From the NCBI GenBank assembly GCA_944376715.1, contig CALWDO010000001.1, forward strand, positions 1 to 64,000: a DNA stretch of 64,000 bases. Direction: 5' to 3'. The translations under genes were made by a program, and so were the position numbers. This document shows, piece after piece, positions 17,299 to 28,803 of this stretch (position 1 is the stretch's first letter; every line of letters starts with the position of its first letter). The notes beneath the pieces are model-generated. The model searched no databases. It saw only the letters and a program-made list of their open reading frames with translations, and had not been told where the DNA came from. The DNA is from an uncultured Lachnoclostridium sp. (GTDB lineage: Bacteria > Bacillota > Clostridia > Lachnospirales > Lachnospiraceae).

Positions 17299-18726
17299 TT
17301 ATAAATTCTCGAACATTTTTTTCACTAATGTTTTCTTATCGCTTACAGTCCTGGGCATATATCTGCGGATCACCTGCTGAGGAGAAGCAAATCCCATCAG
17401 TTCCGCAATCGCGTCCGAACTGGCTCCTGCCTTCACCGCATGAATCGCATAAGTATCTCTCAACATTCTGGGAGTCACATTTCCCAGGCCGCAGGCGTTG
17501 GCTCTGCGCATCAACGCCGCCCGCATCCGGTCCATGCGTACAGGTTCTTTTTCTGATTTACGCAGAACAAATTCTTCAGGTTGTCCCTGATACTGCCGCC
17601 GCGTTTCCTCCAGTTCTTTTAACAATAATTCAGGCACCGGTATCGTACGCTTCTTTCTTCCGGTCAGCTGCTCCAATTCATACCTGCGGTTCTCTCCGGG
17701 AGCGGTATCTCTTCTTACCGCCAGAAAGTATTCCAGATGGAATTCGCCATTTTCAAAATCTACCTCTTTCCAGCGTAAAGCCGCCGCTTCGCTCAACGTC
17801 ATTCCGGTATACAGGATCAGTTGAAATCCCAGCCCCAACGGGTAACCATCTTCATCTTTGTATCCAAACAAGGATGGCTTCAAGATATCCAGCCGAGCAT
17901 CATCCAGCCAGTTCTTTTCTTCCCAGATATTTTTTCCTTTCAGTGTCCATGCCGGATCTGTACAAGGATTCTTCTCTATCAGGCCGGCTTTCTGGGCGTC
18001 ACGCATACAGCCGCTTAAAACCGATAAAGTATTTCTTAGCGTTCCTTCTGTCATATAACCGCCCTTTGTTCCTGAAATCGGCGTATCCTGCAGTTGTTTC
18101 ACCCATTGTCCAACAACTTCTTCTGTCATGTCTGTCAGCTTCTCTTCACCCAGATACGGAAGAATATGCCGCTCCATTATCTCCGCGTACATACATATGG
18201 TCGTCTCTTTTACAGCGTTAGGCAATATGCTTTGAAGCCAGATATATGCCCATTCTTCCAAAGTTTCAGCGGCATTCGAATCTCCCTGGCGAAATGCTTT
18301 TTTCTTTTCTTCCAGCTTTTCATCTGTCCGCTGTCCCCATTTTTTACTAATTGCAGACCTGTCGCATCCACAGCTTTTTACATGACCGTTTTTCAGGTCC
18401 CTGGTGGCAACGCTTTTTTCTCTCCCGCAGTCGCACCGGCAAATGACTTTCTGCAGTGTCGTATGATTATCTAAATCCTCTCCTATTACGGTCAATTTCC
18501 CGAACCGCCTGCCAATCATCTGCTCCGGTGTAGAACGAATACAGCCGCAGCTTTTCCTGCGGCCGCTTTTCAGCAAATATCCTGGCGCAACACAAATGTT
18601 GCCGCAATCACACTGGCAGTTCCACAGAGAAATCCTCTGTCTGCCAGTCTGGCCGTAACCGGCAAATCCGGTTACGACCAGTTTTCCAAACCGTTGTCCT
18701 GTAATATCTTTAACGGTTCTTGGCAT
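17299..18726 (-). CDS. Tyrosine-recombinase-like protein with two zinc-ribbon modules and altered catalytic residues
   Basis: A 475-residue protein. Residues about 8-62 and 69-121 are two copies of a GxRFGKLxV...CxCDCG...KSCGC module, probably zinc-binding DNA-recognition ribbons as found in phage and mobile-element proteins. A core-binding domain (from about 152) and a tyrosine-recombinase catalytic domain follow. The conserved boxes are recognisable but changed: the first arginine is lost (TGMTLSEAAALRW instead of TGLRxxE), box II reads TPRMLRDTYA (canonical HxLRHT), and the GH box reads MGFASPQQ. The nucleophile tyrosine in IRRYMPR and the box-II arginine remain. It is probably inactive or strongly altered as a recombinase. 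It lies 21 bp behind the adhesin gene with an AAAGGAAG ribosome site, so it is likely co-transcribed with it. Confidence 0.8.
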   Translation of the reverse strand: MPRTVKDITGQRFGKLVVTGFAGYGQTGRQRISLWNCQCDCGNICVAPGYLLKSGRRKSCGCIRSTPEQMIGRRFGKLTVIGEDLDNHTTLQKVICRCDCGREKSVATRDLKNGHVKSCGCDRSAISKKWGQRTDEKLEEKKKAFRQGDSNAAETLEEWAYIWLQSILPNAVKETTICMYAEIMERHILPYLGEEKLTDMTEEVVGQWVKQLQDTPISGTKGGYMTEGTLRNTLSVLSGCMRDAQKAGLIEKNPCTDPAWTLKGKNIWEEKNWLDDARLDILKPSLFGYKDEDGYPLGLGFQLILYTGMTLSEAAALRWKEVDFENGEFHLEYFLAVRRDTAPGENRRYELEQLTGRKKRTIPVPELLLKELEETRRQYQGQPEEFVLRKSEKEPVRMDRMRAALMRRANACGLGNVTPRMLRDTYAIHAVKAGASSDAIAELMGFASPQQVIRRYMPRTVSDKKTLVKKMFENL

Positions 18727-18747: not shown

Positions 18748-21700
18748 TTATTTCGTAAGTTTCCTCTTTTTGTATATAACAGCTCCGCACGCGGCCAGAG
18801 CAATCACTGCAACCGCCGCAAGAACGACATACAGCGTAATATTTCCGGTATCTCCTGTTTTAGCAGTGCCAACCTGCTGCGGCGTTGATGCTGCGCTGCC
18901 TGTACCGTTATCGCTGCTTCCACCGCTTCCGCTGCCCGAGTGGCTTCCGCTTCCGGACTTCACCTGCTGATTGGTGATCACAATATCCGCCGTATCGGCA
19001 GTCTTGGATACTGCCACCTGGCTTCCTTTCACATCAATCTGGTAGCCAAAGTCTTTTCCGCTGCTTACCACATTTCCGTCTTTATCCGTCTCCATTACAT
19101 AGTAAGTACGGCTGCTTCCGTCCGCGGGCGTTTCCACGTTTATTTTTACCGTTACTTCGCTGGCGTCTGTCAGTTTCAGCTCAATGACATCACCGTAACG
19201 GTTCTGGTATTTGTTGTCCGTAAAGATAGATGCATAGAAGGACGTACTTACCTTCTTGGCAGCGCCCTTATTCGTCTGTACCTTCTTAGTGATGTTCAGT
19301 GTGGCGGTTCCGGCTGTCGGCTCTTCGGGTACGGGAGTCTCGGGTACGGTGTAGCTGACGGTGGGCTTCGGGAAGGTCTTGCTTCCGATATCTCCTTCTG
19401 TCGTTTTATATTCCAGAATCGCCGATTCGTTGGTCTGGATGCTCTCGTATCCCTTGCTTCCATCCCTGTCATACTGACCGTATGTACCTGCCTCGCTGCT
19501 CTTATTGACCAGCTTCAGCACATAGGACAATGTGAGATCGTTGGCATTTTCCACCGGAACATTGATTGTCCATACAAAGTGTTCTTCACCGGCTGCCCCC
19601 GGTACGTATTCCACTGTATATGGATAAACTCCACTCTCATCTGCAGTTCCGAAGTTCACCAGGTTCGCATTGGAAGAATCTTTCGTTCCTGTTACTTCTG
19701 TTCCTCCGACAGTCAGTCTAAAAGTATCTACATTTTTCAGGTCAAAGTCATTGCCGATCACGTCTGTTACGGTTCCGCTATTGATTGCGTAAAGGATCTG
19801 GTTCTCAATACCCTGAAATACCGTCTTCGCTGTACTATCGCTGATCTCCCCGCTTCCGGCATCAGACTGGCTAATCAGATAGTCCATCAGCTGTTCTCCA
19901 TATGGATATTGTCCCCAATGATTTTCATCCATTTTTAATGCGAAAGCATAATCAACTTCATCAACCAAATCCCGGTAAACTGCTGCGCTCTTATAAATGG
20001 CAATTTCTGTGCCAATCAAAAAGTCATCTGCCGTTTTTCCATTATCAGTCCAATCAGGCTGGAAACTTATATATTTGTTGTTTTCACATGACGCAGTTGT
20101 CCCATCCGAATTATAGTAAGAAGCAAAATAAGGTTTTGTTGCTTCGTACTTTTTTAATATATCATTGCTGCCATTTACTAATGCTTCAAAAATAGTATTG
20201 GGGATTTCAGCGCTGCTTCCCGGCAGTTCACCTGGATATTTCATTTCTACTACGCTGTTTCCATTCTGAATGCTGTATTCACCATTCGATCCCTGCTGAT
20301 ACCAGACGCTCAGTGTATCCCCAGTGTCTTCATCTGTCCACAAATACGTAAGGCCATCACTGATTGTAATCAAATATGTCGTATAACCATCAATCTCGTC
20401 CGAAGCCAGAAGCTCCTGCGCGGACAGAAGTCCTGCATGATAGTTAGTTCCTCCGGTCTGAGTCTGTGACAACAAACTGTTTACATCTGTCTCCGGAGTT
20501 ATGGTTGTCCACTCTCCTGAATCTGCATCTGCCCAGTAGTTGATTACTCCAACCTTTACATCCGTTTTGTCTTTCGATGCAAGTTCTTCCAACATAGCTG
20601 CAGCTTCATCACGAACATTTACGCTGGTAGAATAGTCAAGTACAAACAGTACGGCAACTTTGTTCTGGTTTTCCGTACTTCCAATGCCAAGCTGTACCGT
20701 CGTTTCATCATCTGCATTCAGTTCTTCTGCTTTTTTCGTAATATTGACATCGAAGCCGTCCGGATTTACATCCGGGGCATAACTCCTGTTCCACTTTGCG
20801 TATGCTACAGTCCAGTTAGCAGTCAATGGCTCGCTGAAATCAAACGCCTGTGTGCATTCCGGATCCGTATACCAGCCCGCAAATACATAGTTGTACTGCT
20901 CACTTCCGCTCTCACGCACCGGGACTGAATCAGGTCTTGTGCCAACCCCTTCATATGCAATCTGTGTCTGAGATTCTGGCATATTAGTCACGGAATCCGT
21001 GGTATTTGCATCAAACGTAAGCCCTACTAACGGTGCATAAACATAAGTTCCTATGCAGTCAAAACTATTTGAGTGCTCTGCTGCATGATCAAGATAATCT
21101 GCACAGGTATCTGTACATGAATAGCGAATTACACCGTAAGTATTTTCTGTAGCGTTATCAGTGATCTCTCCATTTTCCCAATCGTATTTGTGGTGAGCCA
21201 GTTGTGCTTCTGTCAAGCTGCCAATCTTCGCATTATCTTTGCCGATAATATCCGATCTGTCTGCAACATGATCATCATCGAACAAATCCGCATCATTATT
21301 GCTTGCCTTATTCTCTGCATTTCCACGGGCATAATCAGATTCCATGAATGGATTCAGGAATAAGATATGTGAAGCTACCTCCAACACATTCGCATCTTCT
21401 AAAACCGGTTCTGTGTTGCTCTTTAAATTGTCAGTGCTATTATCATTTAAATCATATGCTACAACGCTACTGCTTCCAATTGTTTCAATATCAGAATCTG
21501 TCGTTTGAACACTTCCCATCCTTCCAACAGCCCCCAACCATGCTGAGCCTGGCTGCGCTTCAGAAGTACAGTTATTTATACTCAGAGTATATCTTTGATA
21601 TATTCCGCTTGACAATCTACCTGTCCAAGTATCTCCGGCACTATAACTTAATAACTTTTCTCCATTACAACGAATATCTACCGTACAATTCGTCAACGAA

Positions 21701-23205
21701 GAATCTTTGGACTGAATATACACTCCTGCATATCCGTTATGTAAAACTTCCAATTTGGAATCCATCATATCAAAGCCAATACAAGACAGGCCATGACCGC
21801 CGCGGTTCCCATTAATAGTAATTTCTGAACCATTTGATACATACCAATATCCCGTATTGCATCCATTACCTAAATTGTTATTCACAGTTACTTTAGAATT
21901 ATCAATATAGATATTGGATTCATTAATAACAAATCCGCCTGCTCCGTTATCGCTAAAATTAATAGTAGAATTATTTAAGTAAACTGCATCCCATACTTCT
22001 TTTCTTCCATCACCTTTAGAGCCAACATAAAACACATTTATATTCCTTATACTAGGATCCGTTATTATTGATCCTGTTGATGCCATAGAAGAATTATTCA
22101 GTTTTATCACGGAGTCACCGTATAAAGCATAGCTCCAACCGTTTTTGTTTCCAACTGTGGAGATATTACTGTTGTTAAATGTAACAGTACTTCCCGCTTT
22201 ACCATATAAACCAAGAAACTGTCCATTATAACCCTCAGCTTTTAATGTACATTCATTTAAGTTGATGTCACCACTATAAAAATAAATCGCCGCATCGTTG
22301 CCTGCGCCATTTGTTTTTGTAGCACCTTCTGTAGTTTCAAACGTACAGTTAACAAATTGAACATTACCGCCAATCCACAATTTTGTTACAGCAGCATTAT
22401 CATGTGTCACCCCTGAAATATTTCCTCGAATAGGAACTGTTCCACCAGATAAAATAAATTTACAGTTTTCAAACACAATTGGATTTTCAGCAGAGGCACC
22501 CTGTCCCGAAATTACTAATGCCTTACCTTCAGCAATATTATAATTTACATCTGCAGCACCTTCTGTAAGAATAGTGACACCTTCATTCAACACACCATCC
22601 GCCAAAGCATCAACACCTTCATCGGCAAGAAGGTCAATTTCTAATGCATTTAAGGTATTATCCGCCGGAAGCTCATTTGTAACAGGTGTCGGCACTTCCA
22701 CTCCTTCTACCTTCGTTGGATCTTGGACTTCTTCATCCTTTTTATCTGTTTCCTCAGTTTCAACTATGGAAGTTTTCTCTTCTTCCCTTTCCATTTCAGA
22801 TAGTGCTTTATCTTCGTCTACAGAACCAGGGATTTCCTGATCCGTATTATTTTCATCTGCATCCCCTGAATTTACGTTATCATTCTGTACAATATCCTGC
22901 GTTTCATCAACCGGTGAATCATTGCCCTCTTCCGTGTCAGTCACAACAAGCATATCCTCAGTCTCTGAATCGCTTTCTTCTGCTGGTTCTTCCGTAACCG
23001 GTGTTTTCACATCAGATAATGACTCGTCCTTTGTTTCATCGTTCACATCGACTACTTCAGACTGTTCGCTGTTTTCTGAATCTTCACTTACTACAGTAAT
23101 CTGATCCGCAGCCCCTGTGTCTTCTGTTGCAAACGTCATAAATCCGCTCTGTGCAACAAGAACAACAGCCAACAGCATTGCCATGAACTTTTTCATCCCG
23201 TTCAT
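18748..23205 (-). CDS. Giant cell-wall-anchored adhesin (beta-helix, InlB B-repeat, VWA, pilin-like domains)
   Basis: A 1,485-residue surface protein. In order: a signal peptide (MKKFMAMLLAVVLVAQSGF ending near TFA); a Glu/Asp/Thr/Ser-rich stalk to about residue 215; a region of short Asn-rich repeats that looks like a right-handed beta-helix, about 220-620; an InlB B-repeat about 725-807 (VFAGWYTDPECTQAFDF, AYAKWN); a von Willebrand factor A domain about 850-1095 with metal-site variant DYSTS; pilin-type Ig-like domains about 1148-1288 and 1300-1413 (TATLNITKKVQTN, YYVMETDKDGN); a Ser/Gly linker; the sorting signal TAKTGD; a membrane helix and the KKRKLTK tail. It should be bound to the wall by a sortase. 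AAGGAGG precedes the ATG at 23205; an upstream ATG at 23247 has no such site. The middle is more AT-rich than the flanking genes. Confidence 0.88.
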   Translation of the reverse strand: MNGMKKFMAMLLAVVLVAQSGFMTFATEDTGAADQITVVSEDSENSEQSEVVDVNDETKDESLSDVKTPVTEEPAEESDSETEDMLVVTDTEEGNDSPVDETQDIVQNDNVNSGDADENNTDQEIPGSVDEDKALSEMEREEEKTSIVETEETDKKDEEVQDPTKVEGVEVPTPVTNELPADNTLNALEIDLLADEGVDALADGVLNEGVTILTEGAADVNYNIAEGKALVISGQGASAENPIVFENCKFILSGGTVPIRGNISGVTHDNAAVTKLWIGGNVQFVNCTFETTEGATKTNGAGNDAAIYFYSGDINLNECTLKAEGYNGQFLGLYGKAGSTVTFNNSNISTVGNKNGWSYALYGDSVIKLNNSSMASTGSIITDPSIRNINVFYVGSKGDGRKEVWDAVYLNNSTINFSDNGAGGFVINESNIYIDNSKVTVNNNLGNGCNTGYWYVSNGSEITINGNRGGHGLSCIGFDMMDSKLEVLHNGYAGVYIQSKDSSLTNCTVDIRCNGEKLLSYSAGDTWTGRLSSGIYQRYTLSINNCTSEAQPGSAWLGAVGRMGSVQTTDSDIETIGSSSVVAYDLNDNSTDNLKSNTEPVLEDANVLEVASHILFLNPFMESDYARGNAENKASNNDADLFDDDHVADRSDIIGKDNAKIGSLTEAQLAHHKYDWENGEITDNATENTYGVIRYSCTDTCADYLDHAAEHSNSFDCIGTYVYAPLVGLTFDANTTDSVTNMPESQTQIAYEGVGTRPDSVPVRESGSEQYNYVFAGWYTDPECTQAFDFSEPLTANWTVAYAKWNRSYAPDVNPDGFDVNITKKAEELNADDETTVQLGIGSTENQNKVAVLFVLDYSTSVNVRDEAAAMLEELASKDKTDVKVGVINYWADADSGEWTTITPETDVNSLLSQTQTGGTNYHAGLLSAQELLASDEIDGYTTYLITISDGLTYLWTDEDTGDTLSVWYQQGSNGEYSIQNGNSVVEMKYPGELPGSSAEIPNTIFEALVNGSNDILKKYEATKPYFASYYNSDGTTASCENNKYISFQPDWTDNGKTADDFLIGTEIAIYKSAAVYRDLVDEVDYAFALKMDENHWGQYPYGEQLMDYLISQSDAGSGEISDSTAKTVFQGIENQILYAINSGTVTDVIGNDFDLKNVDTFRLTVGGTEVTGTKDSSNANLVNFGTADESGVYPYTVEYVPGAAGEEHFVWTINVPVENANDLTLSYVLKLVNKSSEAGTYGQYDRDGSKGYESIQTNESAILEYKTTEGDIGSKTFPKPTVSYTVPETPVPEEPTAGTATLNITKKVQTNKGAAKKVSTSFYASIFTDNKYQNRYGDVIELKLTDASEVTVKINVETPADGSSRTYYVMETDKDGNVVSSGKDFGYQIDVKGSQVAVSKTADTADIVITNQQVKSGSGSHSGSGSGGSSDNGTGSAASTPQQVGTAKTGDTGNITLYVVLAAVAVIALAACGAVIYKKRKLTK

Positions 23206-23273
23206 TTTTTCCTCCTTCATAAACTCTTTCTCTCTGGAGGAATTCATAGGATTTTGGTATACTTTTATGAAAA

Positions 23274-23300
23274 TTTCATAGAATACCTAATACTATGAAA
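23274..23300 (-). repeat. Inverted recombination site, left copy
   Basis: A 27-bp site with perfect 8-bp internal arms TTTCATAG/CTATGAAA and an 11-bp spacer. Read on the minus strand it matches the right copy (24345-24371) at 23 of 27 positions, including the core ATTAGGTATTC. Additional half-sites (TTATGAAA at 23266, TTCATAGG at 23243) lie beside it. Confidence 0.8.
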
Positions 23301-23310
23301 ACCCTACTAA

Positions 23311-23339
23311 ATAGTACACCAAAAAGTGGAAAAAATCAA
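23311..23339 (-). promoter_or_regulatory. Candidate adhesin promoter inside the invertible segment
   Basis: On the minus strand TTGATT (23334-23339) and TACTAT (23311-23316) are 17 bp apart. The predicted start, near 23304, is just before the left inverted site, giving an adhesin leader of about 100 nt. The -10 box is part of the palindrome TACTAAATAGTA (23305-23316), which could also be an operator. Confidence 0.6.
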
Positions 23340-23404
23340 TGGAAAAATAGGGTGTTTCTAACCAATATAAGGTATTTTCCAGGGCATATTGAAAGGAGAA
23401 GACA

Positions 23405-24358
23405 ATGAACGAGAACAGAAAAATATCAGGACTTGTAAATGAGTGGTTGGCTTCTGTGGAGTCTAGAATTGCCAGATCAACATATGTAAAGTATGAGCAG
23501 TTGGCCAGAAATTATATTGTGCCATATTTTGACACAATGACATGCAAAGAATTAGATAATAATCAACTGCATCGTTTTTGCAATATAATCCACCAAAAAG
23601 AAAGTACTTCAAGAAAAACTTTGTCCGTCGGAAATCAAAGGACAATTTTTATGATTATGAATAATACACTGGATTATGCATATGATTCCCGTATACTGGA
23701 CCAAAGGTATTATATACGCCCAAGATTAACACGTCCAAGAAGAGTAGTACAGGTCTTTTCACAGGAACACCAAAAAAGAATTGAAGATTATGTACTTCAC
23801 CATAATGATGAATGTTCTCTGGCGGTGATGCTGGCTTTATTCACTGGATTGAGACTCGGTGAAATCTGCGCGCTGCAATGGGAAGACATCAGCTTTGAAA
23901 CAAATTCACTGTATGTCAATAAAACTGTACAGCGTTTGAAAAGGATAGATGAAAGCGGAAAGGCAAAGACAGAACTGCTGGTTTCACATCCTAAAAGTGC
24001 AGCGTCAAACCGATTGATTCCTCTGCCGGACTTCCTTATGAAATATCTGAAGCAGTTTTCCCATAAAGCAGAACATGCATATATTTTGAACAATGAAATA
24101 TATACGCCTATGGAGCCTCGGACGCTTCAGTATCATTATCAGAAAATGCTGCAAAAAATAGGTGTCCCATATTTGAATTTCCATTGTCTGCGACATACTT
24201 TCGCGACCAGGTGCGTGACGCTTGGGTGGGATATGAAGACTCTGAGCGAAGTGCTGGGACATTTTGATATTAAGATTACAATGGAGTACTATTTCCACTC
24301 TTCATTTGAATATAAGCAGATACAGATGAATAAGATCATCCCTCTTTCACAGAATTAG
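23405..24358 (+). CDS. Tyrosine recombinase (phase-variation type), intact
   Basis: A 317-residue site-specific recombinase. Residues about 5-110 form the SAM-like core-binding domain (NEWLASVESRIARSTYVKYE, NRTI-like helix). The catalytic domain keeps all key residues: arginine in FTGLRLGEICALQW (about 147), a beta-hairpin lysine region SHPKSAASNRLIPL, HCLRHTFATR (about 260), LGHFDIKIT (about 285) and nucleophile tyrosine in MEYYFHS (about 294). GAAAGGAG precedes the ATG. The gene is AT-rich and divergent from the adhesin gene. Its last codons and stop lie within the right inverted site, which fits a recombinase acting on its own flanks. Confidence 0.9.
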   Translation: MNENRKISGLVNEWLASVESRIARSTYVKYEQLARNYIVPYFDTMTCKELDNNQLHRFCNIIHQKESTSRKTLSVGNQRTIFMIMNNTLDYAYDSRILDQRYYIRPRLTRPRRVVQVFSQEHQKRIEDYVLHHNDECSLAVMLALFTGLRLGEICALQWEDISFETNSLYVNKTVQRLKRIDESGKAKTELLVSHPKSAASNRLIPLPDFLMKYLKQFSHKAEHAYILNNEIYTPMEPRTLQYHYQKMLQKIGVPYLNFHCLRHTFATRCVTLGWDMKTLSEVLGHFDIKITMEYYFHSSFEYKQIQMNKIIPLSQN

Positions 24359-24371
24359 GTATTCCACGAAA
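24345..24371 (+). repeat. Inverted recombination site, right copy
   Basis: A 27-bp site whose core ATTAGGTATTC and outer TTTCA/GAAA arms match the left copy in inverted orientation, 23 of 27 positions; three of the four differences are transitions. Its own internal dyad is weaker (TTTCACAG/CCACGAAA). It covers the recombinase stop codon. Confidence 0.8.
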
Positions 24372-24404
24372 CAGTTTCCGGGTTTGGAAACTGTCTTTTA
24401 TTTT
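24371..24404 (+). terminator. Rho-independent terminator after the recombinase
   Basis: Perfect arms ACAGTTTCC and GGAAACTGT with a 6-nt loop, then CTTTTATTTT. It lies immediately outside the invertible segment, so it would stop the recombinase transcript in this orientation and the turned-away adhesin promoter after inversion. Confidence 0.88.
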
Positions 24405-24440
24405 AACTGCATAGAAAAAGAAAAATGACAAATTAACGTC

Positions 24441-24480
24441 AAAAAGGGCTTCCGCAGATTTCAGTCTCTGCGGAAGCCCT
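24441..24480 (-). terminator. pnp terminator
   Basis: Arms AGGGCTTCCGCAGA and TCTGCGGAAGCCCT followed on the minus strand by TTTTTGACG. Strong Rho-independent terminator for the rpsO-pnp unit. Confidence 0.9.
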
Positions 24481-24502
24481 GCTTCTTTATATTATGATGA
24501 TA

Positions 24503-26590
24503 TTACTGTTTGCAGTCCTTGATAGAGAAGCTTACGCGTCCCATCTTGTCTTTGCCAAGGCATACTACCTTCACCACATCGCCCAGAGTCAGCACATCTT
24601 CCACGCGGTTGATTCTCTCTTTCGCGATCTTGGAGATATGAACCATACCTTCCTTGCCCGGAGCGAACTCCAGGAATGCGCCGAATTCTTTGATGCTGAC
24701 CACTTTACCGGTGAGCACCTGGCCTTCCTCGAAATCAGTCACGATGATCTCGATCAGCTCTTTCGCCTTGTCCATCATTGCCTGATCGGTGCCGCAGATG
24801 GATACGGCTCCGTCGTCGTCGATATCAATCTTCACGCCGGTCTGCTCGATGATGGCATTGATGGTCTTTCCTCTCTGACCTACCACATCGCCGATCTTCT
24901 GCGGATCGATCGTCATCTGGATGATCTTCGGCGCGTACGGTCCAACCTGCGGACGCGGTTCGGCAATGGCTTTCTTCATGCAGTTTTCCATGATGAAGAG
25001 TCTTGCCTCACGGCATCTGGCAATGGCGCCCTCCACGATCGGACGGGTCAGTCCATGGATCTTGATATCCATCTGGATCGCCGTGATACCGTCGGTGGTA
25101 CCCGTTACCTTGAAGTCCATGTCTCCGAAGAAATCCTCCAGTCCCTGGATATCCGTCAGAAGGACAAAGTCGTCGTCTGTCTCGCCGGTCACCAGACCGC
25201 AGGAGATACCTGCCACCATCTTCTTGATCGGCACGCCTGCCGCCATCAGAGACATGCAGGAAGCACAGGTGGACGCCATAGACGTAGATCCGTTGGACTC
25301 GAAAGTCTCGGATACGGTACGGATCGCATACGGGAACTCTGCCTCACTGGGAAGTACCGGAATCAATGCTCTCTCTGCCAGAGCGCCATGTCCGATCTCG
25401 CGGCGTCCCGGTCCCCTGGACGGTTTTGTCTCACCTACCGAATAGCTCGGGAAATTATAATGATGCATATATCTCTTGCTGACTTCATTCTCATCCAGTC
25501 CGTCCAGTCTCTGCTGTTCGGAAAGGGGTGCCAGCGTACACACGTTGCAGATCTGGGTCTGTCCGCGGGTAAACATGGCGGAACCATGTACACGCGGGAT
25601 AATATCCACTTCTGCCGCCAACGGACGGATCTGCGTGATCTCACGGCCGTCCGGACGCTTATGATCCTTCAGGATCATCTTACGGACTGTCTTCTTCTCA
25701 TACTGATAGATAGCCTCATCCAGAACTGCCAGCCACTCTTCATTCTCGGCGAACGCCTCCTCAAGCTTCTCGGTCAGAGCGCGGATATTGCCTTCCCGGG
25801 TCTGTTTATCATCCGTGAATACGGCTTCCTCCATCTCTGCCGGAGGAACGATCTCTTTGATCGCCGCGAACAGCTCTTCCGGAATCGCGCAGCTTTCATA
25901 GGTGTGTTTTTCCTTTCCTACTTCCGCCACGATCTGGTCGATGAATTTAATGATCGTCTGGTTGACGTCATGCGCCAGATAGATGGCCTCGATCATCTTC
26001 TCCTCCGGAATCTCATTGGCTCCGGCCTCGATCATGATCACCTTTTCCCTTGTGGAAGCCACAGTCAGGTTCAGGTCTCCCTCTTTCCATTGACGCTGGG
26101 ACGGATTGATAACGAACTCTCCGTCAATCATTCCCACCTGGGTCATAGCGCAGGGGCCGTCAAAAGGAATATCTGAAATACTGGTCGCGATGGCGGCGCC
26201 AAGCATGGCTACCAGCTCCGGACGGCACTCCGGATCCACGCTCATAACCATATTGTTCAGCGTCACGTCATTGCGGTAGTCCTTCGGAAACAGCGGTCTC
26301 ATGGGACGGTCGATCACACGGGAAGTCAGGATCGCGTTCTCGGACGCTTTCCCTTCACGCTTGTTGAATCCTCCCGGGATCTTTCCTACCGCGTACATTT
26401 TCTCTTCATAATCTACGCTGAGAGGGAAGAAATCGATGCCCTCTCTCGGTTTTTCAGAGGCGGTGGCCGTAGACAGCACTACCGTATCCCCGTAATGCAT
26501 GAAAGCCGCGCCGTTTGCCTGGGCAGCCACACGGCCGATATCCACTCTCAGTGTTCTGCCTGCCAGTTCCATTGTGTAACTTTTGTACAT
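24503..26590 (-). CDS. pnp: Polyribonucleotide nucleotidyltransferase (PNPase)
   Basis: A 695-residue exoribonuclease of the usual length. It has two RNase PH domains (GRTLRVDIGRVAAQANGAAF at the start; the catalytic second domain with HHYNFPSYSVGETKPSRGPG and NGSTSMASTCASCMSLMAAG), a KH domain (IGDVVGQRGKTINAIIEQTG) and a C-terminal S1 domain (GQVLTGKVVSIKEFGAFLEF, FSIKDCKQ). It degrades RNA 3'-to-5' using phosphate. It follows rpsO, the classic arrangement, behind a long leader hairpin. Confidence 0.97.
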   Translation of the reverse strand: MYKSYTMELAGRTLRVDIGRVAAQANGAAFMHYGDTVVLSTATASEKPREGIDFFPLSVDYEEKMYAVGKIPGGFNKREGKASENAILTSRVIDRPMRPLFPKDYRNDVTLNNMVMSVDPECRPELVAMLGAAIATSISDIPFDGPCAMTQVGMIDGEFVINPSQRQWKEGDLNLTVASTREKVIMIEAGANEIPEEKMIEAIYLAHDVNQTIIKFIDQIVAEVGKEKHTYESCAIPEELFAAIKEIVPPAEMEEAVFTDDKQTREGNIRALTEKLEEAFAENEEWLAVLDEAIYQYEKKTVRKMILKDHKRPDGREITQIRPLAAEVDIIPRVHGSAMFTRGQTQICNVCTLAPLSEQQRLDGLDENEVSKRYMHHYNFPSYSVGETKPSRGPGRREIGHGALAERALIPVLPSEAEFPYAIRTVSETFESNGSTSMASTCASCMSLMAAGVPIKKMVAGISCGLVTGETDDDFVLLTDIQGLEDFFGDMDFKVTGTTDGITAIQMDIKIHGLTRPIVEGAIARCREARLFIMENCMKKAIAEPRPQVGPYAPKIIQMTIDPQKIGDVVGQRGKTINAIIEQTGVKIDIDDDGAVSICGTDQAMMDKAKELIEIIVTDFEEGQVLTGKVVSIKEFGAFLEFAPGKEGMVHISKIAKERINRVEDVLTLGDVVKVVCLGKDKMGRVSFSIKDCKQ

Positions 26591-26624
26591 ACTAGCTGTA
26601 TCTCCTTTCTTTGTGCCTATCTGT

Positions 26625-26699
26625 AGAAGATACCGAAACTACTGAAAAATGCAAAACAGCGTCTTTTGCGCTTTTCAGTGGTCTCGGAGTTTATCTTCT
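26625..26699 (-). ncRNA. Long leader hairpin upstream of pnp
   Basis: Outer arms AGAAGATA/TATCTTCT, middle CACTGAAAA paired with TTTTCAGT, and inner GCAAAA/TTTTGC form a nearly continuous stem of about 30 base pairs with a 4-nt bulge. It lies 35 nt before the pnp start. In enteric bacteria a comparable double-stranded leader is cut by RNase III and degraded by PNPase as autoregulation; the same role is inferred here. Confidence 0.7.
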
Positions 26700-26723
26700 G
26701 CCAGATAATATTAAATTTCCACG

Positions 26724-26750
26724 AAAACAGGGCGGAGGAACCCTCCGCCC
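26724..26750 (-). terminator. rpsO terminator / rpsO-pnp attenuator
   Basis: Stem GGGCGGAGG/CCTCCGCCC with a 3-nt loop followed on the minus strand by TGTTTTCG. It would end part of the rpsO transcripts and let others read into pnp. Confidence 0.82.
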
Positions 26751-26759
26751 TTATGACTG

Positions 26760-27026
26760 TTATTTTCTCAGTCCAAGTTTTGCGATCAGCGCACGGTATC
26801 TCTCGATATCGATCTTCTTCAGATATGCAAGCATACCACGTCTCTGACCTACCATCTTCAGAAGACCTCTTCTGGAGTGATGATCCTTCGGGTTTGCTTT
26901 CAGGTGCTCGGTCAGCTCCTGGATCCTTGCGGTCAGGATGGCAACCTGTACTTCCGGTGAACCGGTGTCACCCTCGGTGCGTCCGTATTCTGCGATAATC
27001 GCCTGTTTCTTCTCTTTGGAAATCAT
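26760..27026 (-). CDS. rpsO: 30S ribosomal protein S15
   Basis: An 88-residue protein with the complete S15 fold and its RNA-binding residues: [39 protein letters not shown] and [26 protein letters not shown] is 8 nt before the ATG at 27026; an in-frame upstream ATG (27062) would add 12 residues not found in S15. Confidence 0.97.
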
Positions 27027-27053
27027 GTGTTTCTCCTCCTTTTTCTCCTTAAC

Positions 27054-27100
27054 GCCAGTCATTAAGAACCGGTCGGAGTATCCTGATCCTGAATGACGGC
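27054..27100 (-). promoter_or_regulatory. Possible S15 autoregulatory leader stem
   Basis: In the rpsO leader, GCCGTCATT and AATGACTGGC pair with one bulged base, closing a loop that holds GGATACTCC and CCGACCGG. The stem ends close to the ribosome-binding site. S15 is known to bind its own leader in several bacteria, but this structure is only a candidate. Confidence 0.3.
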
Positions 27101-27157
27101 TGAATTCATACTTTATAACAATAGCATAAACCCTATATTTTGTAAAGTCGTTTTTTC

Positions 27158-27730
27158 CTACTTCCAGCAGGGCGGCAGCTTCGGATTCTGTACACGTACA
27201 GGCTCCGGATATGTTTTTCCGAAAAGCTCAACCTCCACATGATCGATCACCTGCGGTTCCACAGGACGGTTCACTTCCACGCCTTCAATGGGGAAATCCG
27301 TCACCGGAACCGTCTCTACTTTTTCCAGCCGGTAAAGCTCGTCCATGCCTTCCAGGACTTTTCCGAATACCGGATAGATCCCTTTATGTTCCGGGCAGTC
27401 CCGCAGCGGGAAGAAAAATTCACAGCTGGCAAGTCCTGCTTCTCCATAACCGCCCATGCAGACTGCGCCCGGATGAGAATCCAGCGGTTCGATCTCCGGA
27501 TGCAGTTCAAACTCATTGGGAATCAGATAACGGCAGGCTTCCTGCCCGAAGGCCGTATAGCTCACATCGATCCAGTCGCCCGGTACGATTCTCTCGATGG
27601 CATGATGATCCATATAACCTCCCAGCGCCGCGAACAGGAAACTGTTCACAGTATTGGGTGCCGCATCCGGCAAAAGTTCCATCACGATCTTCGAACCATT
27701 GGCCATATGCAAAGTTACTCTCGGATTCAC
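27158..27730 (-). CDS. Cyclophilin-type peptidyl-prolyl isomerase
   Basis: A 190-residue cyclophilin. It has [38 protein letters not shown], the [14 protein letters not shown] strand, the core [20 protein letters not shown] (in place of the usual GxxSMA and SQFF) and [20 protein letters not shown]. The first catalytic arginine appears in [10 protein letters not shown]. No signal peptide, so cytosolic. Its start overlaps the stop of the M24 peptidase gene (ATGA). Confidence 0.85.
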
Positions 27731-28803
27731 CCGATCACCTCCAGATCTTTGGAATAGTGGTTCAGTACTTCGCAGCCGTCTTCTGTCACCAGAACCAGAT
27801 CCTCTACCCGTACTCCGGTATCGCCGGACAGGTAGATTCCCGGTTCGATCGAGAAGATCATGCCCGGTTCCGCCTTCCAGTCATTGGCGGAAGACACGTC
27901 TCCGTACTCATGCTCGGCAAGGCCGATGAAATGTCCCAGCCGGTGTGTGAAATATTCGCCGTATCCGGCTTCCGTAATCAGATCACGGGCTGCTTTGTCC
28001 AGCTCGCAGAGCAGCACGCCGGGTTTGATTCTGGAGATCGCCTTCTCATTGGCGCTGCGCACGATGTCGTAGATCTTCCGGTGCTCCCCACTCACTTCTT
28101 TATAATAAAAGGTTCTCGTCATATCCGAGCAATATCCGTCTTTGATGCATCCCACATCAAACAATACGCAGTCTCCCGGCTTTACAGCCGTGTCGTCCGG
28201 CGCGTGATGGGGATCTGCCGCATTGGCGCCAAAAGCCACCAGCGGCTCAAAAGAGAATCCGTCGGCTCCCAGATCCTGATAGATCTTCAGCATCTGATCC
28301 GCCGCCTCTTTCTCTGTCACGCCGTCATGGATCAGTGTCTTGAACTGCGCCATCGCCCGGTCGTTGATCAGGGAAGCCGTCCTCATCAGTTCCTGCTCTT
28401 CCGCGTCTTTCACGCCTCTGGTACGGTCTACTGCAATAGATGCGTTTACGAACCCTGCCGCCGCCTTCCGGTCGATCAGCGGCAGGAGGAAGGAAGCGCG
28501 AAGATCTTTATCTACGCCCAGAGGCGTATCTTTATCCAGTCTCCCGGCGATCAGATCTGTCACCGGATCGGTATCGGAGTACCATACCTTTTCAATTCCC
28601 ACATCCTCCGGCACATGGAAGAGACGATTCAGGAAATAGACATGCTTTCCGTCCGCTCTCAGATAGAGCCCGTAAAAACGCTCAAACGGCGCTATATAGA
28701 CGCCCGTCAGATAATAGATGGACATGGGATCCACAATCAGCATCTGGGATAATCCCATGTCTCCAAGCGCTTTCAGCACACGATTCACTCTGTTCTGTTT
28801 CAT
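27727..28803 (-). CDS. M24 family aminopeptidase (Xaa-Pro type)
   Basis: A 358-residue pita-bread metallopeptidase. The N-terminal creatinase-like domain (LLIVDPMSIYYLTGVYIAP-type segment) is followed by the catalytic domain with the metal ligands in DCVLFDVGCIKDGYCSDMTR, THRLGHFIGLAEHE, MIFSIEPGIYL and TGVRVEDLVLVTEDG. It probably removes N-terminal residues before proline in the cytosol. The ATG at 28803 has AGGAG at about 11 nt; an ATG at 28815 has it too close. Confidence 0.9.
   Translation of the reverse strand: MKQNRVNRVLKALGDMGLSQMLIVDPMSIYYLTGVYIAPFERFYGLYLRADGKHVYFLNRLFHVPEDVGIEKVWYSDTDPVTDLIAGRLDKDTPLGVDKDLRASFLLPLIDRKAAAGFVNASIAVDRTRGVKDAEEQELMRTASLINDRAMAQFKTLIHDGVTEKEAADQMLKIYQDLGADGFSFEPLVAFGANAADPHHAPDDTAVKPGDCVLFDVGCIKDGYCSDMTRTFYYKEVSGEHRKIYDIVRSANEKAISRIKPGVLLCELDKAARDLITEAGYGEYFTHRLGHFIGLAEHEYGDVSSANDWKAEPGMIFSIEPGIYLSGDTGVRVEDLVLVTEDGCEVLNHYSKDLEVIG

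Follow-up and report, generated by a model that had tools for sequence, protein, structure and literature searches.

A candidate self-contained invertible promoter switch, with its own tyrosine recombinase, upstream of a surface-protein gene in Lachnoclostridium and its relatives

Background

The H segment of Salmonella has its target promoter inside the invertible block and is served by Hin, a serine recombinase with hix sites. The recombinase gene lies inside this block of 966 bp (PMC5903667; for the placement of Hin also PMC2784873). In Escherichia coli, fimS with FimB-FimE and ipuS with IpuA are systems in which tyrosine recombinases invert a promoter that serves surface structures; one of the ipuS repeats is within the end of the recombinase coding sequence and inversion truncates IpuA (excerpt of PMC6083910). 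The cwpV/RecV system of Clostridioides difficile concerns a clostridial surface protein and combines 21-bp imperfect repeats with a tyrosine recombinase. According to the cited portions of PMC2784873 and PMC5903667, the cwpV promoter is outside the 195-bp element and a terminator in the OFF transcript has been proposed as the control, while recV is unlinked to cwpV and acts on several sites. Finally, the hCom2 inverton group 139 and invertase group 35 represent clostridial invertons that are statistically linked to nearby tyrosine recombinases, and one group-139 example spans 257 bp (excerpt of PMC11892184).

We report the analysis of a 64-kb stretch of DNA, hereafter the window, from an uncultured Lachnoclostridium sp. 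(positions 1-64,000 of contig CALWDO010000001.1, assembly GCA_944376715.1), in which a tyrosine recombinase gene and a predicted promoter for an adjacent surface-protein (adhesin) gene are located between two inverted sites. In carrying its own recombinase this cassette is closest to the Salmonella Hin segment: in both, the recombinase gene and the target promoter are inside the block. However, the enzyme class differs, since Hin is a serine recombinase whereas the domain search identified a tyrosine recombinase here; the cassette is therefore not a member of the Hin family and, unlike the Hin arrangement, its promoter is at the 5' end of the recombinase gene and diverges from it.

The fimS and ipuS elements measure 260-314 bp and contain no more of the recombinase gene than its end, if any of it, as described in the excerpt of PMC6083910, whereas the present block holds the whole gene; moreover, while inversion truncates IpuA, the enzyme considered here would be identical in both states because its gene terminates within the invariant core. 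The layout given for cwpV/RecV in the cited portions, i.e. promoter outside and recombinase unlinked, also differs from that of the window, where both are inside the block. For group 139 the excerpt of PMC11892184 contains no description of a recombinase within the inverted block; invertase group 35 and the window recombinase possibly belong to one enzyme superfamily. Among the literature matches listed, judged by title and the start of the abstract, none describes this cassette.

Methods

Relatives of the window recombinase were searched for in the genus and in parts of the larger groups (397 genomes of the family, 392 of the order and 391 of the class), in the latter with at most five candidates scored per genome; more cassettes may therefore exist. 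The loci L001 and L002, identified in a scan of genome contigs, were analysed as L043 and L042, respectively, in wider sequence fetches. Terminators were scored by script for L043, L042, L038, L039 and L040, and by eye, with longer loops, for L035 and L036. For the promoters of the more distant cassettes the opposite cassette end was used as control. Pairwise dN/dS values were calculated according to NG86.

Results

Anatomy of the cassette

The first-pass annotation had described two inverted 27-bp sites with 23 of 27 matches, and these are present at the positions it gave (Table 1), at the two ends of a 1098-bp block; the left site has the described dyad of perfect 8-bp arms, TTTCATAG and CTATGAAA, around an 11-base spacer. 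With up to three mismatches, a 21-base site pattern matched twice in the 64 kb, at these two sites, where shuffled sequences would give 0.03 matches; with up to two mismatches the same two sites were the only matches in the whole assembly (2.9 Mb, completeness rating 88%). Among 17 genomes of the genus, the window site pattern was found at cassettes only, and a backward control pattern gave one match in each of two genomes; solo target sites for action in trans that match the window site were not found in these 17 genomes.

Table 1. Positions of the features discussed (window coordinates unless a locus is named)
Feature	Coordinates	Strand	Basis or remark
Recombinase-like protein P0004, 475 aa; Arg-I, Lys, His-II and His-III replaced	17299..18726	-	Domain search and alignment
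Surface protein (target), 1485 aa; signal peptide, VWA, GBS104-like Ig domain, C-terminal sortase-type tail	18748..23205	-	Pfam; signal peptide and tail by eye
Adhesin leader, conserved across genera	23206..23273	-	TTCCTCC can pair with Shine-Dalgarno GGAGG
Left recombination site, adhesin side, TTTCATAG-AATACCTAATA-CTATGAAA	23274..23300	+	Outer arm TTTCATAG remains at adhesin flank in L043 and L042
Predicted outward promoter TTGATT-17-TACTAT, toward adhesin across left site	23311..23339	-	Sequence and conservation
Tyrosine recombinase, 317 aa, within invertible block	23405..24358	+	Phage_int_SAM_3 and Phage_integrase domains
Right recombination site, pnp side, inverted copy	24345..24371	-	Outer arm TTTCGTGG remains at pnp flank in L043 and L042
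Terminator directly outside right site	24371..24394	+	Terminator/hairpin scan; stem kept, loop changed in L043 and L042
pnp (polynucleotide phosphorylase), fixed flank	24503..26590	-	Domain search and blastn
Second opposite-orientation pair	L081 8626-10000; L078 7925-9321		blastn

The right site holds the last codons of the recombinase gene and its TAG stop, the latter within the site core. That the recombinase is intact, as had been claimed, is confirmed by the presence of all catalytic residues (R150, K197, H260, R263, H286 and Y296) and by the Pfam Phage_integrase match (2e-25), and the full R-K-H-R-H-Y set is present in all nine aligned cassette enzymes. By sequence, its nearest solved relative is the 'Int protein' 6en0, which we take to be the Tn1549 integrase. 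For the recombinase gene, dN/dS ranged between 0.035 and 0.123 (five sequences, computable for 7 of 10 pairs) and for the P0004 gene between 0.063 and 0.108 (five sequences, 8 of 10 pairs), values that are rough because dS mostly exceeded 1; for pnp the range was 0.015-0.024 (three sequences, all three pairs). Both the recombinase and the P0004 gene are, on these rough values, kept by purifying selection. A strong promoter for the recombinase was not evident when the sequence was inspected by eye, and Rfam returned two matches over positions 23150-24500, each far under the gathering score. The site hairpin was considered as a state-specific terminator and ruled out, since in either state the transcript includes a weak hairpin.

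Reversed orthologues in two related species

The two closest recombinases are those of Lachnoclostridium sp. An196 (L043; 91% identical) and of an uncultured Lachnoclostridium MAG (L042; 82% identical). The gene order pnp, cassette, adhesin and second recombinase-like gene is common to both loci; in L042 an additional ORF of 540 aa separates pnp from the cassette. Aligned by blastn, the window matched L043 in the minus orientation over 24345-28000 (query end; 92.7%) and 23098-23300 (93.6%), and in the plus orientation over 23274-24371 (83.8%). The corresponding matches in L042 were minus over 24345-24407, 24469-27993 and 23107-23300, and plus over 23274-24371 (76.5%). In both species the reversed block is bounded exactly by the sites. 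Specifically, the outer arms are fixed to their flanks (Table 1) and the block takes its inner arms, ACTATGAAA and TCTGTGAAA, along with it, which places strand exchange inside AATACCTAAT. The first-pass annotation had proposed inversion and a comparison of orientation in related genomes; the orientation opposite to that of the window in L043 and L042, with exact exchange of half-sites, supports its reading. Both orientations thus occur, as seen between species with one genome per species; a single old inversion would also explain this. The window alone among the three orthologous loci is in the state where the promoter is directed toward the adhesin (state A).

Promoters and terminators

On the minus strand of the window a promoter-like sequence reads out across the left site, as had been proposed. 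It matches the sigma-70 consensus at 8 of 12 positions and is therefore absent from the list of a generic scan that requires nine; that scan gave four hits compared to a shuffle mean of 4.9, i.e. no excess. What argues for a promoter here is conservation and not the consensus score: TTGAT[T/C]-17-TAnnAT is present at the recombinase-5' site, pointing outward, in all ten site-bearing cassettes of the close enzyme group (window included). In nine of nine cassettes the promoter end is 10-19 nt from the core of that site and the recombinase 3' end has no such motif (0/9), and the placement in the tenth cassette (L074) agrees with the others. Markov shuffles of each 89-nt stretch contained the motif in 2-12 of 5000 cases. 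The strong terminator claimed to lie beyond the right site was also found, and a second one is present at 24445-24480. Moreover, seven of the eight relatives examined have a terminator outside the promoter-side site, the exception being L037 with a weak outward hairpin (-7.4 kcal/mol).

Distribution of related cassettes

Searches of the genus, family and order gave eight further close relatives, 45-74% identical to the window recombinase (L035, L036, L037, L038, L039, L040, L041 and L074), of which L035 is a second copy in the genome of the MAG carrying L042. The order search added L074 (49% identical) and found L041 again, and no further cassette was detected in the 391 class genomes sampled. 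Inverted sites surround the recombinase in seven of these eight; the conservation of the sites where the recombinase is present, one of two points on which the first-pass annotation had staked its reading, thus extends to 10 of 11 close recombinases when the window, L043 and L042 are included, with L041 (45% identical), where no qualifying site pair was found, as the exception. Judged from the ORFs on either side, the recombinase gene is directed toward the apparent target in eight of the ten cassettes (L043, L042, L035, L036, L038 and L039, together with L037 and L040, for which the flanks are short); L074, with outward genes on both sides, is ambiguous, and the window has the reverse arrangement. 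Among the cassettes compared, the promoter faces the target in the window only. Outside cellular genomes, 14 pattern stretches in viral contigs yielded no confirmed close relative, and phage records (1775) and plasmid records (best 5000) gave matches under 60% only.

The arrangement is not confined to the window or its close relatives and recurs across a family of recombinases. Within the genus, 18 further recombinases are 31-37% identical to that of the window and 13 of these are enclosed by clear inverted repeats, whose dyad sequence is in most cases distinct to the cassette. The remaining five lack a clear repeat pair: that of L017 is weak, and none was found for L024 and L028, nor for L010 and L014 with less than 470 nt of upstream sequence. 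A sigma-70-like match, defined by a looser pattern than in the close group, points outward at the recombinase 5' end in all 13 distant cassettes, and at the other cassette end in one (L011). Comparing L081 with L078 gave a second pair of opposite orientation (Table 1), in which the target-side flank has the same sense (71%) and the recombinase block is reversed (67.8%). The two loci share the target-side flank only, their other flanks differ, and a 396-aa gene, 78% identical, is found beyond the reversed block; reversed relatives are consequently known in two enzyme groups.

Two observations concern individual distant loci. In L075 and L076, from two genomes, the recombinases point at large EssC-looking genes with small WXG100-like ORFs close by (ORFs judged by eye), which suggests a switchable type VII secretion locus. 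In L018 the downstream site occurs twice within a short distance (1539-1785), which could provide two alternative inversion end points.

The adhesin, its leader and P0004

The adhesin start was placed at 23205 and not at the mechanical ORF start (23247) on the basis of a Shine-Dalgarno sequence and a signal peptide, both identified by eye. TTCCTCC and GGAGG are both present in five of five adhesin loci, and translational control of the adhesin through their pairing is possible. The fold of the window leader is of unexceptional stability (z -1.15; 25 of 200 shuffles fold equally well), and for this reason we note the anti-Shine-Dalgarno pairing alone; in the best fold of the L043 leader the Shine-Dalgarno sequence pairs with another upstream stretch, not with TTCCTCC. 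The leader, the signal peptide and the C-terminal part match the DNA of L043 while the long middle does not, as if the passenger region had been swapped; L042 still matches the window over much of the adhesin middle.

The gene for P0004 begins 21 bases downstream of the adhesin gene. An alignment of 13 homologues, among them P0004 itself, shows the same catalytic positions replaced in every one: Thr or Ser stands in place of Arg-I, Arg in place of His-II, and Phe or Tyr in place of His-III. Arg-II and Tyr are kept; the Lys column, which is less surely aligned, has Leu, Ala or Val in all 13. Two cysteine-rich CxC...CGC repeats are present in the N-terminal part, a match to a phage HNH-endonuclease family covers residues 1-65, and no solved structure matched at E 0.001. 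P0004 thus probably binds DNA but lacks recombinase activity. By eye, and for some of them with Pfam, 11 of the 13 homologues were placed beside a predicted surface protein or a pilin-like cluster, L060 and L061 being without such neighbours, and five of the 13 adjoin a recombinase related to that of the window (P0001).

Discussion

Our data suggest that the cassette is a self-contained invertible promoter switch, in which the recombinase flips its own block with the adhesin promoter inside it, and we put the probability of this reading at roughly 0.86. We infer that this recombinase would bind both 27-bp sites and recombine within the core, turning the block round, and that it would do so reversibly within a strain. 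In state A, the outward promoter would read across the left site into the adhesin gene and the recombinase-like gene behind it (ON), while the terminator outside the right site would end the recombinase transcript; with its promoter facing the adhesin, the window is probably in the ON state. In state B, the orientation seen in the two related species, the promoter would run into the pnp-side terminator, while the recombinase gene would be aimed at the adhesin, which would receive read-through at most. The first-pass annotation had cautioned that such read-through might give partial expression, and the reversed loci bear this caution out: the only hairpin between the recombinase and adhesin genes in L043 and L042 is weak (-5.7 kcal/mol), so some read-through is possible and, with no strong block predicted there, the OFF state may be leaky.

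Taken further, the same observations raise the tentative and somewhat unlikely alternative of two modes of expression, from the outward promoter in state A and by co-transcription of recombinase and adhesin, at a lower level or with different timing, in state B. The distance from recombinase stop to adhesin start codon is 75-82 nt in four state-B adhesin loci, the intervening site hairpin is weak also in L036 (-3.8 kcal/mol), and the recombinase is aimed at the apparent target in most cassettes, two of these judged from short flanks. However, the recombinase has no strong promoter evident by inspection, and the promoter-side terminators suggest that silencing of the outward promoter matters.

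Phage_int_SAM_3 and Phage_integrase domains are common in integrases and the nearest solved relative is an 'Int protein', so that the cassette might be read as the remnant of an integrative element, i.e. an integrase with attachment sites whose reversed orthologues reflect one old inversion. This is improbable, since the sites are inverted and not direct, there is no cargo, the recombinase is under purifying selection, the promoter is fixed at one cassette end and a second reversed pair exists in the distant group. A chance inverted repeat without recombination would fit the weak promoter match and the generic scan, but can be dismissed given the expected 0.03 occurrences of the site pattern and the reversed orthologues bounded by the sites.

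For the family as a whole we offer a more speculative picture, rather doubtful in its entirety: modular one-gene flip cassettes, each with its own recombinase, site pair and divergent outward promoter, would be set before adhesins, polysaccharide clusters, regulators and genes for secretion in gut Lachnospiraceae, and in the adhesin version the degenerate recombinase, co-transcribed when the switch is ON, would bind DNA and exert feedback, either on the switch itself or at sister surface loci. If so, P0004 would represent a testable feedback partner, and the layout, in which the promoter is divergent and the stop codon is embedded in the crossover core, would give the Hin arrangement a counterpart built on a tyrosine recombinase, so that self-contained inversion switches would have been reached by a second route. 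The state of such a switch would be readable from half-site junctions in an assembly or read set, and orientation in metagenomes would directly reveal the surface proteins that are switched on in vivo. Portable single-gene switches would then set surface display in these gut commensals.
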